Shown: positions 16,213-63,451 of the stretch, piece by piece
Position numbering within the stretch: the first letter of the stretch is position 1
Layout: each line of letters opens with the position of its first letter
Assembly: GCA_022821085.1 (NCBI GenBank)
Contig: JAJEEG010000006.1
Coordinates: 1,001,330 to 1,065,329 of the forward strand
Direction of reading: 5' to 3'
Length of the DNA stretch: 64,000 bases
DNA from: Candidatus Latescibacterota bacterium
GTDB taxonomy: Bacteria > JAAXHH01
The notes under the pieces: model-generated
Seen by the model: only the letters and a program-made list of their open reading frames with translations
What the model was told of the DNA's origin: nothing
Databases searched by the model: none
Made by a program: the position numbers and the translations under genes

Positions 16213-17670
16213 ATGATCCAGATAAAAGAAATCGACCTCCGCATCCAGAACATGCGCACGCGCATGCCCTTCAAATTCGGCATATCGACCATGACGGCCG
16301 TGCCGCACCTGGTGCTCGGCATGGCACTGGAGGAAGACGGCCGCACGGGCAGGGGTTATTCGGCGGACCACCTTCCTCCGAAATGGTTCACCAAGAATCC
16401 CGATACGTCCCTGGAAGATGAAGTGGGGGACATGATCGACGTCATCCGTCACGCCAGCGACGCCGCGCTGACCATCGGCCCCGCGCCCGGTCCGTTCGCC
16501 CTCTGGCAGGCACTGTACGAAGCACAGAAGTCCTGGGGCACCGCGCGCGGTTTTGCGCCGCTTCTGTGGGGCCTGGGTACCAGCCTGGTGGAAAGAGCCA
16601 TGATCGAGGCTTTCTGCCGCCTGCAGGGCACGAATTTCGGCCAGGCCGTGCGATCCAACGCCTTCGGCCTCCGACTGGACGCTATCAACCCGGAACTGAA
16701 GGGTCTGGAACCTGCCGATGTGCTGCCCGGCTCCCCGATCACCGTCACGAACGTGCGCCATACCGTGGGACTGGGAGACCCCCTGACCCGGCCGGACATA
16801 CCGCCGGAGGAGCGGTGCGATGATGGGCTGCCCCAGTCGCTGGACGAGGTCATCGACACCTATGGCATATCCTACTTCAAGATCAAGCTGTTCGGCGATG
16901 AAGCGCGGGATTTCGACCGCTTGAAACGGACGGCCGGGATCATCGGCGGGCGCCTGGACCGCTACGCTTTCACCCTGGATGGCAATGAGAATTACGGCGA
17001 TATGGAATCGTTCCGGTCATTCTGGGAAGCACTGCGGGCGGATCGCGACCTGTCCGGGTTTCTGCGGCGTCTGATCTGCATCGAGCAGCCTCTTCACCGC
17101 AACATTGCGCTGGACGATGAAGTAAAGCGGCACTTCCAGGCCTGGCCGGACCGTCCTTCCTTCATCATCGACGAATCCGACGGCGATATCGGCGATGTGA
17201 CAAGGGCCGTCGATATCGGGTATGCGGGGACGAGCTACAAGAACTGCAAAGGGGTATTCAAGGGACTGTCCAACGCGGCCTACCTGAAGCACCGGTCGAA
17301 CCAGTACCCGGAACGCACGTACATTATGACGAGCGAAGACCTTTCCAACATCGCACCGATCGCGCTGATGCAGGATCTCGCGGTACTGGCCACATTAGGG
17401 GTTGACCACAGCGAGCGAAACAGCCACCATTACTTCAAAGGGATAACGGTCTGGCCGGATGATATACAGGAACAAGTCGTGAAATACCATCCAGACCTGT
17501 TCAGCTTGCATGCCGGTGGATTTCCTTGCATGAGTATCCAGAATGGCCGGATAAACATGGAGAGTGTCACGACCAGTCCCTTCGGGGTGGGATTCGAGTT
17601 CGTTGGGCCGCTTGGTTCGCAACTGACCCCGCTGGATGACTGGAATTATGCTTCCCTGGAGGTTGATTGA
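16213..17670 (+). CDS. Enolase-superfamily (mandelate racemase/MLE-like) enzyme
   Basis: A 485-residue member of the enolase superfamily acting by proton abstraction alpha to a carboxylate. An N-terminal capping domain precedes the barrel with YFKIKLFG (Lys general base pair), LDGNENYG (metal Asp, about 258), CIEQPL (metal Glu) and IIDESDGD (metal Asp). These are consistent with an intact metal site. It is longer than typical MLE enzymes (about 370-400) because of insertions in the capping domain. It starts 7 bases after the antiporter stop, but no convincing ribosome binding site is visible. Substrate unknown. Confidence 0.8.
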   Translation: MIQIKEIDLRIQNMRTRMPFKFGISTMTAVPHLVLGMALEEDGRTGRGYSADHLPPKWFTKNPDTSLEDEVGDMIDVIRHASDAALTIGPAPGPFALWQALYEAQKSWGTARGFAPLLWGLGTSLVERAMIEAFCRLQGTNFGQAVRSNAFGLRLDAINPELKGLEPADVLPGSPITVTNVRHTVGLGDPLTRPDIPPEERCDDGLPQSLDEVIDTYGISYFKIKLFGDEARDFDRLKRTAGIIGGRLDRYAFTLDGNENYGDMESFRSFWEALRADRDLSGFLRRLICIEQPLHRNIALDDEVKRHFQAWPDRPSFIIDESDGDIGDVTRAVDIGYAGTSYKNCKGVFKGLSNAAYLKHRSNQYPERTYIMTSEDLSNIAPIALMQDLAVLATLGVDHSERNSHHYFKGITVWPDDIQEQVVKYHPDLFSLHAGGFPCMSIQNGRINMESVTTSPFGVGFEFVGPLGSQLTPLDDWNYASLEVD

Positions 17671-17750
17671 TCGATTGGGCTGCGTTCATCGGCTTGCCGG
17701 TAGCCTGGTCGTGAATTTCCCAGGTCGGAAGTCTCAAGGTGAGGGCAAGC

Positions 17751-17860
17751 TGTACAACACACTGCTTGATTGTACTAAAACAATAACGGATTGTACAATT
17801 AATATTATGTTTGTACGATATCCGCCTGCGATTTGTACAGAACATATATCTTTTGTACGA
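17751..17860. repeat. Phased TTGTAC(A/G)A array, left part (6 sites)
   Basis: Six GTAC-centred sites have the G of GTAC at 17752, 17772, 17793, 17813, 17835 and 17855, giving spacings of 20, 21, 20, 22 and 20 bases. Site forms are TGTACAAC, TTGTACTA, TTGTACAA, TTGTACGA, TTGTACAG and TTGTACGA. The site is palindromic at its core, the bases between sites are not conserved, and two helical turns separate neighbours. This looks like a cooperative protein-binding array, not CRISPR. Confidence 0.8.
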
Positions 17861-17909
17861 TAGCAAAAAACACGCATGAAACGCCAAAAGGGACCTGCGA
17901 ATAGCGCCC

Positions 17910-18030
17910 GAAACCGGATTACGACCGTTTTCACCAGGAGCGAGGTGCTGGATTTCGCACTTTTCAGGCCGAAAATCGGGTGTTCGAGGGTAGTTTCGAG
18001 CCACCCCTTGACCCTATGGAAACCGGATTA
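17910..18030. repeat. 12-base direct repeat GAAACCGGATTA (two copies)
   Basis: Exact copies at 17910-17921 and 18019-18030, 109 bases apart, both in the segment between the two phased arrays. No coding context. Confidence 0.65.
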
Positions 18031-18047
18031 GAGTCGAAATAGATTTA

Positions 18048-18063
18048 CATAATATCTATTATG
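18048..18063. repeat. 16-base palindrome CATAATATCTATTATG
   Basis: CATAATA (18048-18054) and TATTATG (18057-18063) are exact inverted repeats around TC. It lies between the two phased arrays and could be an operator of a dimeric regulator. Confidence 0.55.
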
Positions 18064-18146
18064 CGAAGTAGGGTTTTGGAGGGGTAAACGAGGGATTTGG
18101 GGACCAGGGGCTATAAATCGAGCCCGTGTGGAACAAAAACGCCTAA

Positions 18147-18331
18147 TGTACAAAATAAAATAGGTTTGTACACACCACGTGTGCATGTTGTACAAATATA
18201 ACTATATTAGTATGATCGTGTGTTTGACGTGTACAAAAAGACATAGAGTAGTACAACTGTAATTATACAAATCATATAGTAATTGTACAATGATTGGGCA
18301 CGGACGTAATAAACAATGTAGATTTGTACGA
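18147..18331. repeat. Phased TTGTAC(A/G)A array, right part (7 clear sites)
   Basis: GTAC sites have their G at 18148, 18168, 18190, 18231, 18251, 18285 and 18326. Degenerate versions fill missing phases at 18210 (GTAT) and 18306 (GTAA), and a TTATACAA lies at 18263-18270. Spacings are 20, 22, 41 (20+21), 20, 34 and 41 (21+20). The last site ends about 36 bases before the next gene, so the array could control that gene or overlap its promoter. Confidence 0.75.
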
Positions 18332-18367
18332 CATGCTATGGTAAAGTGAAAGCAGTCTCCAGAGCGA

Positions 18368-19381
18368 TTGCCTCAAAAAGTTAAATCCTTGCGTTCAAAA
18401 CACCTCATCAACAATGGTTTTCGAAATATCGAGCTGGAGGAGTTTGATCTCTCCCCAGTACCGGATGACGGCGTACTTGTACGTAACGAATATACGGCCG
18501 TCAGCGTGGGCACGGAAATCTACAATTATATAAATGGAAGTGAATTTGGCGGCGAACCAAGATTTCCACGTACTACTGGCTATTGCAATGCAGGGGTTGT
18601 TGTCGAGGTTGGGCGGAATGTGCGGGATCTTGCACCGGGCGATCGCGTAGCGGGCCAGGGGAATCATGCAAGACATTCGGTAATGACCGGCTTGATAAAC
18701 AAGGTTCCGGAGAACGTGTCATCCAGGGCTGCTGCGTTCATGGTCATGTGCGCGACGTCATTGCACGGTCACCGCGTGGTCCGGCCGGAGTTGGGAGAGT
18801 CCGTCGTCGTGACTGGTATGGGGATCGTGGGCCAGTTGGCCGCCACTTTTGCCAGATTGAGTGGCGCCACACCCGTCATTGGCGTGGATCTGGACGACTT
18901 CCGTCTTCAGAAAGCCCGAGAACGTGGGGTTGACGTATGTATCAACCCGAATAGTGAGCCCGATGTGGCCGGGGCAGTCCGTCGGCACTGTGTGGCAGAC
19001 GGTGCGGACCTGGTCATCGAAGCCACCGGCGTGCCCTCTGTCTACCCCATGGCGCTGACCCTGCCGAGACTCGGCGGCCGCCTGCTCGCCCTCGGTTCCC
19101 CGCGCGGTTCGGTGGAAGTGAGCTTTTTCGCCGAGGTCCATCTGCGCGAGATCACGGTCCTGGGCGCCCACCAGCCCAAGACACCCGATGAGGCCGACCT
19201 GTACTATCCCTGGAGCAAGCGCAGGGACCGAGACCTGGTGCTCCGCCTCATGAATGAAGGCAAACTGCCGATCGAAGACCTGATCACCCACGAAGTCAGT
19301 CCCGCCGATTGCCAGTCCGTTTACGATATGCTTGCTGACCATCCCAGGGAGGTTCTGGGTGTGGTGTTCGACTGGAACTGA
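18368..19381 (+). CDS. MDR-family zinc-binding-type dehydrogenase
   Basis: A 337-residue medium-chain dehydrogenase/reductase. The N-terminal GroES-like fold has YTAVSVGTEIYNY in place of the catalytic Cys-containing motif, and the structural four-Cys zinc lobe is missing. The Rossmann domain has GMGIVGQLAATFARLSGA and VIGVDLDDFRLQKA. It is therefore likely zinc-free or with an unusual site. The first in-frame start is TTG 18368; no good ribosome binding site is seen, and a somewhat later start is possible. The first 200 bases share the low GC of the upstream array region. Confidence 0.78.
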   Translation: MPQKVKSLRSKHLINNGFRNIELEEFDLSPVPDDGVLVRNEYTAVSVGTEIYNYINGSEFGGEPRFPRTTGYCNAGVVVEVGRNVRDLAPGDRVAGQGNHARHSVMTGLINKVPENVSSRAAAFMVMCATSLHGHRVVRPELGESVVVTGMGIVGQLAATFARLSGATPVIGVDLDDFRLQKARERGVDVCINPNSEPDVAGAVRRHCVADGADLVIEATGVPSVYPMALTLPRLGGRLLALGSPRGSVEVSFFAEVHLREITVLGAHQPKTPDEADLYYPWSKRRDRDLVLRLMNEGKLPIEDLITHEVSPADCQSVYDMLADHPREVLGVVFDWN

Positions 19382-62992: not shown

Positions 62993-63451
62993 ATGCATTC
63001 GATTTGTACGACTGAAGACCATTCGGGGGTACTGCGAAATGCACACACCCGGAATGTGGCGATAGCGTTTGCGGACGACATAGCCCACGACTTGGGGCTC
63101 GAAATGGTCCGGGTATTGCGCGGCGCAGAGATAAGGACGTTGGCCAAATCGAAGGGAACGAAGGACATTCCCGCAAACGACCTGCGCAGTTTCGGCGCCG
63201 CCGATCTGATCATCGAGGCCAGGGACGGCAAGGACGAGACCTGCTACGTCGCCGTCGAGGTTTCATTCACCGCCAATGGAAGGGATACGCGCAGAGCCAT
63301 CAGGAACGCGGGTTTCATGGCCCGCCTCACTGGCAGACGCGCGTATTCAGTAGTGACGGGTCTCAGGAAAGACGACGGTATTCAGAAGGCCATCGCATCC
63401 GGGGACGTGTACTGGTATCAACTTTCCCCGGAAGCGTTCGATATAGACTAA
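62993..63451 (+). CDS. Hypothetical protein, PD-(D/E)XK-like
   Basis: A 152-residue protein I cannot assign firmly. The pattern AADLIIEARDG...CYVAVEVSFTAN resembles the D-x(n)-E-x-K core of PD-(D/E)XK-type proteins, with Ser where Lys is expected. It begins after an in-frame stop, at ATG 62993, with only a weak ribosome binding site. Similar but longer proteins with an N-terminal coiled-coil exist, so this may be a shortened form. Confidence 0.6.
   Translation: MHSICTTEDHSGVLRNAHTRNVAIAFADDIAHDLGLEMVRVLRGAEIRTLAKSKGTKDIPANDLRSFGAADLIIEARDGKDETCYVAVEVSFTANGRDTRRAIRNAGFMARLTGRRAYSVVTGLRKDDGIQKAIASGDVYWYQLSPEAFDID

Follow-up and report, generated by a model that had tools for sequence, protein, structure and literature searches.

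What are two phased arrays of GTAC sites doing in a gene-free stretch of a bacterial chromosome, and to what do they belong? The locus comes from the 3.75-Mb genome (7 contigs) of a Candidatus Latescibacterota-type bacterium, and we analysed it by sequence comparison within a window of 64 kb, meaning the whole stretch of DNA under study. A sequence-only reading had described thirteen periodic GTAC sites in a gene-free, AT-rich setting, and both parts of this description were borne out. In the left array, GTAC starts at 17752, 17772, 17793, 17813, 17835, and 17855 (gaps of 20, 21, 20, 22, and 20); in the right array, at 18148, 18168, 18190, 18231, 18251, 18285, and 18326 (gaps of 20, 22, 41, 20, 34, and 41). 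The array region has a GC content of 0.36–0.50, while that of the whole window is 0.615. When 17691–18360 was dinucleotide-shuffled 5000 times, GTAC occurred 3.8 times on average and at most 11 times, compared with 13 observed, and pairs at 20–22 bp occurred 0.06 times on average and at most twice, compared with 8 observed. None of the 5000 shuffles equalled either the observed number or the observed pair count; the spacing is thus not a common product of shuffled sequence, an outcome that would have spoken against the array. The proposed site consensus, TTGTAC(A/G)A, stands as to its GTAC core, whereas exact TTGTACRA is present at only 6 of the 13 sites.

A dif site lies between the two arrays

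The earlier reading had overlooked that a dif site separates the two arrays and that all these parts form a single module centred on it. dif is the site where dimerised bacterial chromosomes are cut apart, a reaction normally controlled by the FtsK motor. Here it lies on the minus strand and reads ACTTCGCATAA-TAGATA-TTATGTAAATC (XerC arm, 6-bp centre, and XerD arm, in an 11-6-11 layout). The dif pattern is met with 0 mismatches over 27 bases at 18043–18069, where 0 matches are expected by chance. The genome holds a single dif, as does each relative with a match among the 59 genomes searched at up to 3 mismatches; no match was found in G005, G006, G009, and G013, all fragmented assemblies. In every relative of the genus with the whole locus assembled, dif sits between two GTAC arrays. 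The genus relatives that share its exact sequence are publicly available MAGs carrying the label Candidatus Latescibacterota or Gemmatimonadetes. The features of the locus are as follows, with the offsets of the units given relative to dif.

16213–17670, plus strand: left neighbour gene, genus-conserved; no Pfam/NCBIfam match, enolase/mandelate-racemase-like by eye
17752–17775: unit U1, XerD side, outermost, GTACAA-N12-TTGTAC; offset -291 (-290 or -291 in relatives)
17793–17816: unit U2, XerD side; offset -250 (-249 or -250 in relatives)
17835–17858: unit U3, XerD side, proximal; offset -208 in all five complete arrays
17859–18147: conserved core between the arrays; ~17988–18075 nearly invariant in 9 genomes
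18042–18069, minus strand: dif, XerC arm, 6-bp centre, XerD arm
18148–18171: unit U4, XerC side, proximal, 78 bp from dif; offset 103–105
18190–18213: unit U5, right half-site degenerate (GTAT); offset 145–147
18231–18254: unit U6; offset 186–188
18265–18288: unit U7, left half-site ATAC; offset 221–222
18306–18329: unit U8, left half-site GTAA; offset 262–263
18368–19381, plus strand: right neighbour gene, zinc-type alcohol dehydrogenase, genus-conserved

The repeating unit is an inverted pair of half-sites

With the arrays aligned on dif, the repeating unit is an inverted pair, TGTACAA-N12-TTGTACA, whose half-sites lie 20 bp apart. The previously noted rhythm of one site per 20–22 bases is real, but the single site is not the repeating unit, as the units recur every 41–42 bp. 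There are eight units, of which the XerD side carries three and the XerC side five, at unit-to-unit distances of 41, 42, ~312 across dif, 42, 41, 35, and 41, so that the spacing between most of them is about four helical turns. Across the five complete arrays compared (the window, G001, G003, G008, and G010), the offsets of the units to dif vary by only 0–2 bp despite diverged spacers. The 34-base gap that had looked odd is a genuine unit junction, constant at 34–35 bp in all five, and the degenerate sites at 18210 and 18306, which had been proposed to fill empty phases, are indeed missing half-sites, joined by a third at 18265.

Half-site columns are 95% conserved, spacers 60–68%, and the sequence outside 59%, in agreement with the original observation that the core is kept while the spacer sequence is free; the array is neither a CRISPR nor a satellite, as had also been recognised. 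Since the inner flanking AA is better conserved than the outer one, the half-site is defined as TGTACAA, pointing inward. A spacing not conserved in relatives would have counted against the array; the 2-bp constancy of the offsets to dif instead supports the suggestion of a putative protein-binding type of array.

The core of ~290 bp is conserved well past dif. Mean conservation over 9 genomes is 0.87 to the left of dif, 1.00 in dif, 0.76 to its right, and 0.59 outside, and the nearly invariant stretch adjoins the XerD arm and spans dif. About 50 bases on the XerD side of dif are nearly invariant, with the consensus GGTAGTTTCGAGCCACCCCCTGACCCTCCGGGAACCGGATTAGAG, in which GAACCGGATT occurs twice; this stretch may bind a further protein. 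An RNA gene in the core was considered and rejected, as the covariation term was 0.05 with only two pairs changed on both sides, and an Rfam scan of the window returned one tRNA and nothing else.

The sampled GC skew is +0.013 (s.e. 0.005) left of dif and -0.005 (s.e. 0.003) right of it, a weak switch that is consistent with, and not proof of, a likely position of dif at the replication terminus. The dnaA gene is located on a contig other than that of dif. For the KOPS-like sequence GGGNAGGG, which may not be the KOPS of this group, no polarity toward dif was seen.

The arrays belong to dif

A two-half-site matrix found exactly eight units in the 64-kb window and 0 in 819 kb sampled elsewhere in the genome. 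A pattern search of the whole genome returned six of the array units plus two poor matches, compared with four for the reversed-pattern control. Neither the whole-genome pattern search nor the 819-kb matrix scan revealed, beyond chance, extra copies of the unit that could mark the gene of an autoregulated binder.

Units also surround dif in more distant relatives. G012, from another genus of the same family, has three units around its own dif, and G015, from another family, has seven. On its proximal side, the G015 units are centred 102.5, 146.5, and 184.5 bp away from the middle of dif, compared with 104, 146, and 187 bp here; unlike in the host, it is the XerD side of G015 that bears the longer proximal array. 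The genes that neighbour the element in the genus have no counterpart at the G012 and G015 loci. Because the arrays stay with dif in both genomes while the neighbours differ, we conclude that they belong to dif and not to the adjacent genes. In the genus itself, G007 appears from its sequence to have lost U4: its proximal unit matches U5, and yet the nearest remaining unit is still at the usual 104 bp.

These results leave the functions suggested by the sequence-only reading (ParR/parC, plasmid iterons, silencing, or an operator) unsupported, as the units are confined to dif and the neighbours differ in other genera and families. A segregation or replication-initiator gene, expected beside ParR/parC or iteron arrays, is absent from the adjacent positions, where the flanking genes are metabolic. 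An operator array for the downstream alcohol dehydrogenase gene is very improbable for the same reason, since the arrays of G012 and G015 remain with dif next to other genes, and the left array lies ~500 bp upstream, beyond the conserved dif core, even though U8 ends 38 bp before the open reading frame starts at 18368 and this neighbour is conserved in the genus.

Arrays are present in G000–G004, G006–G008, G010–G012, and G015. One genome departs from the pattern: G014 (an 83% complete assembly) has dif and no detected FtsK, yet no array. A palindrome in G014, GTACAAAGAGGTACCTCTTTGTAC, was set aside as a likely hairpin, being at a contig end and upstream of a rimP-like gene. A literature search on dif-flanking arrays, TTGTACAA motifs, and FtsK in Latescibacterota found nothing relevant.

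Xer recombinases are present and FtsK is not detected

Both Xer recombinases are encoded. XerD scores 367.8 bits, above the curated cut-off of 329.6, and XerC 330.4 bits, just under its cut-off of 335.15; the xerC gene adjoins a topA-like gene, and both proteins are conserved in G010 and G012. By contrast, the search for the FtsK motor (PF01580) in the order's 16 genomes gave no match in 15, among them every one of the 12 genus members; the sole match was an 828-aa protein of G015 that corresponds to the defence protein SspH. FtsK gamma (PF09397), the domain that activates XerD, was searched for in 12 of the 16 and detected in none. The controls and four distant genomes (G016–G019) were positive in these searches, and, although the order genomes are draft assemblies, the non-detection is consistent across all of them. 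A motor of the FtsK/SpoIIIE type was likewise undetectable in G000–G014.

The G002 locus bears on whether dif is in use. It is split over two contigs. On the first, the left array and an intact dif lead into foreign sequence; on the second, a hybrid dif precedes the right array. The XerD arm of the hybrid is altered at five positions, and its centre and XerC arm are identical to dif. Read from the sequence, this two-ended pattern is the signature expected of an element integrated at dif by Xer recombination, as known from IMEX elements and the gonococcal island (PMC9765430). Since a mobile element has evidently entered there, dif looks active, a live Xer target. The element itself (L026/G002:C1 and L027/G002:C76), which parts the two arrays, carries a Rad52/22-family gene.

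A third tyrosine recombinase, Cre-like and catalytically complete-looking, is encoded at L164:9772-10740 (G000:C5), with 83–94% identity across the genus. It adjoins tandem lipoprotein-like genes with collagen-like and Ig-like domains, three in G000 and apparently one in G003. Contigs often end near this recombinase, which suggests that the locus is a variable surface-protein cassette. A small open reading frame at 62993–63451 of the window has no Pfam match and is PD-(D/E)XK-like by eye.

Proposed control of recombination and its alternatives

Two modes of XerCD control have been described. Chromosomes and large replicons rely on FtsK, and small plasmids on accessory sequences (PMC11724359; PMC5357621). 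In the latter mode, ~200-bp accessory sequences are bound by ArgR or ArcA with PepA, and FtsK is not needed (PMC11724359; PMC5357621). The locus described here shares features with both. Like the E. coli-type dif/XerCD system, it has one 28-bp site of 11-6-11 layout, which may well sit at the terminus, the genome encodes XerC and XerD, and dif is a target of integrative elements; it differs in that FtsK and FtsK gamma are not detected and in that phased palindromic units lie on both sides of a ~290-bp core. Like cer of ColE1 and psi of pSC101, it combines an Xer core site with long non-coding accessory DNA bearing putative protein sites at fixed distances, and FtsK independence there is matched by undetected FtsK here. 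The accessory DNA of cer and psi, however, lies on the XerC side only and contains one ArgR or ArcA site, whereas here both sides carry units, eight in all, of a new motif (by eye unlike the ARG box) in a 3.75-Mb genome.

We propose, with a probability of about 0.5, that this chromosomal dif works without FtsK by means of an accessory nucleoprotein complex that controls XerCD recombination or brings about its synapsis. Three palindromic units, dif, and five further units at fixed distances would act as one dif-centred module. A sequence-specific DNA-binding protein would occupy the units, with dimers or tetramers contacting the TGTACAA half-sites two turns apart. The unit-bound protein and the conserved core would then shape the DNA around dif into this complex, which would bring two dif sites into synapsis and let XerC and XerD recombine them only if both belong to the same dimer. 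Such a complex would stand in for FtsK, its counterpart being ArgR or ArcA plus PepA at cer and psi. From the anatomy of the locus, we infer that control of recombination is the most likely role of the arrays: because a cer/psi-type arrangement is found on a chromosome without detected FtsK, the unit-bound protein probably selects and synapses dif pairs. The fuller scenario, in which the order has lost FtsK and a dedicated array-bound protein controls XerCD/dif through a two-sided complex, is one we hold tentatively, at slightly under even odds. Given G014, the link between FtsK loss and the arrays rests on one lineage at most.

Several points count against an accessory complex, including the presence of units on both sides of dif, the opposite placement of the longer proximal array in G015, and G014. 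To our knowledge, accessory-controlled Xer recombination occurs on small plasmids only, and a 2025 study of enterobacterial replicons came to the view that large ones cannot do without FtsK control (PMC11724359). FtsK-independent recombination at a chromosomal dif has been described for archaeal XerA/dif (PMC5357621, PMC2958812). That system uses a single recombinase, whereas the host has XerC and XerD. We know of no flanking arrays at archaeal dif sites.

Of the four alternatives, the likeliest is a terminus tether, followed by a fork trap, then by recombinase core sites, and last by the operator considered above. A terminus organiser or tether is unlikely, while keeping appreciable weight. 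A MatP-like or ParB-like binder would join sister termini or anchor them to the division machinery, and any effect on dif recombination would be indirect. The arrays are at the likely terminus, the units are limited to the dif locus, clustering proteins suit multi-site arrays, and cells without FtsK may need some other way of connecting the terminus to the septum. The units also resemble matS, the target of MatP, in being palindromic and specific to the terminus region, but they form one cluster within 580 bp around dif, whereas matS sites are scattered. In the window, matS-like sequences show no enrichment and stay at chance level (GTGACRNYGTCAC, 8 matches at 2 mismatches against 11.6 expected), and mere tethering would need no exact distances to dif. 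At the element, parS TGTTNCACGTGNAACA was not found, as the window holds none with fewer than 3 mismatches, and 5 at 3 mismatches against 1.5 expected. One 3-mismatch parS-like sequence, at 18221–18236, overlaps U6.

We consider a replication fork trap improbable. A terminator protein on the arrays would stop replication forks close to dif, in the manner of RTP or Tus at Ter, and the position at the likely terminus, with arrays on both sides of dif, would suit such a role; the Bacillus RTP/Ter system, too, has multi-dimer sites to either side of the terminus, and the B-site of Bacillus Ter likewise has a GTAC core. The RTP family was not found in the host genome, however, with B. subtilis positive as a control, and the near-palindromic units have no clear polarity and are tightly spaced to dif, unlike Ter.

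Slightly less probable again is that the units are core-type sites for a tyrosine recombinase, a Xer homologue or a Cre-like enzyme, which would bind them without strand exchange since their centres differ. Inverted arms around a 6–8-bp centre recall the geometry of dif, TACA is common to the half-site and the XerD arm ATTTACATAA, and the Cre-like recombinase is conserved in the genus. The palindromic GTAC core nevertheless fits one dimer per half-site, and the Cre-like enzyme was rejected as the array binder, as no orthologue was found in G012 or G015, both of which bear arrays.

Significance

FtsK is regarded as controlling chromosomal XerCD recombination in nearly all bacteria. In this 3.75-Mb genome, XerC, XerD, and a canonical dif are present, FtsK is not detected, and likely protein sites are precisely spaced around dif. 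The eight palindromic copies around dif, together with undetected FtsK, suggest a different, undescribed control of dimer resolution. If the arrays do control recombination, they show one way in which dimer resolution can be coupled or restricted on a chromosome that has no septal translocase for the task, and they offer a compact DNA bait for the missing factor. Array-bound control would, if true, be a third mode for chromosome dimer resolution.
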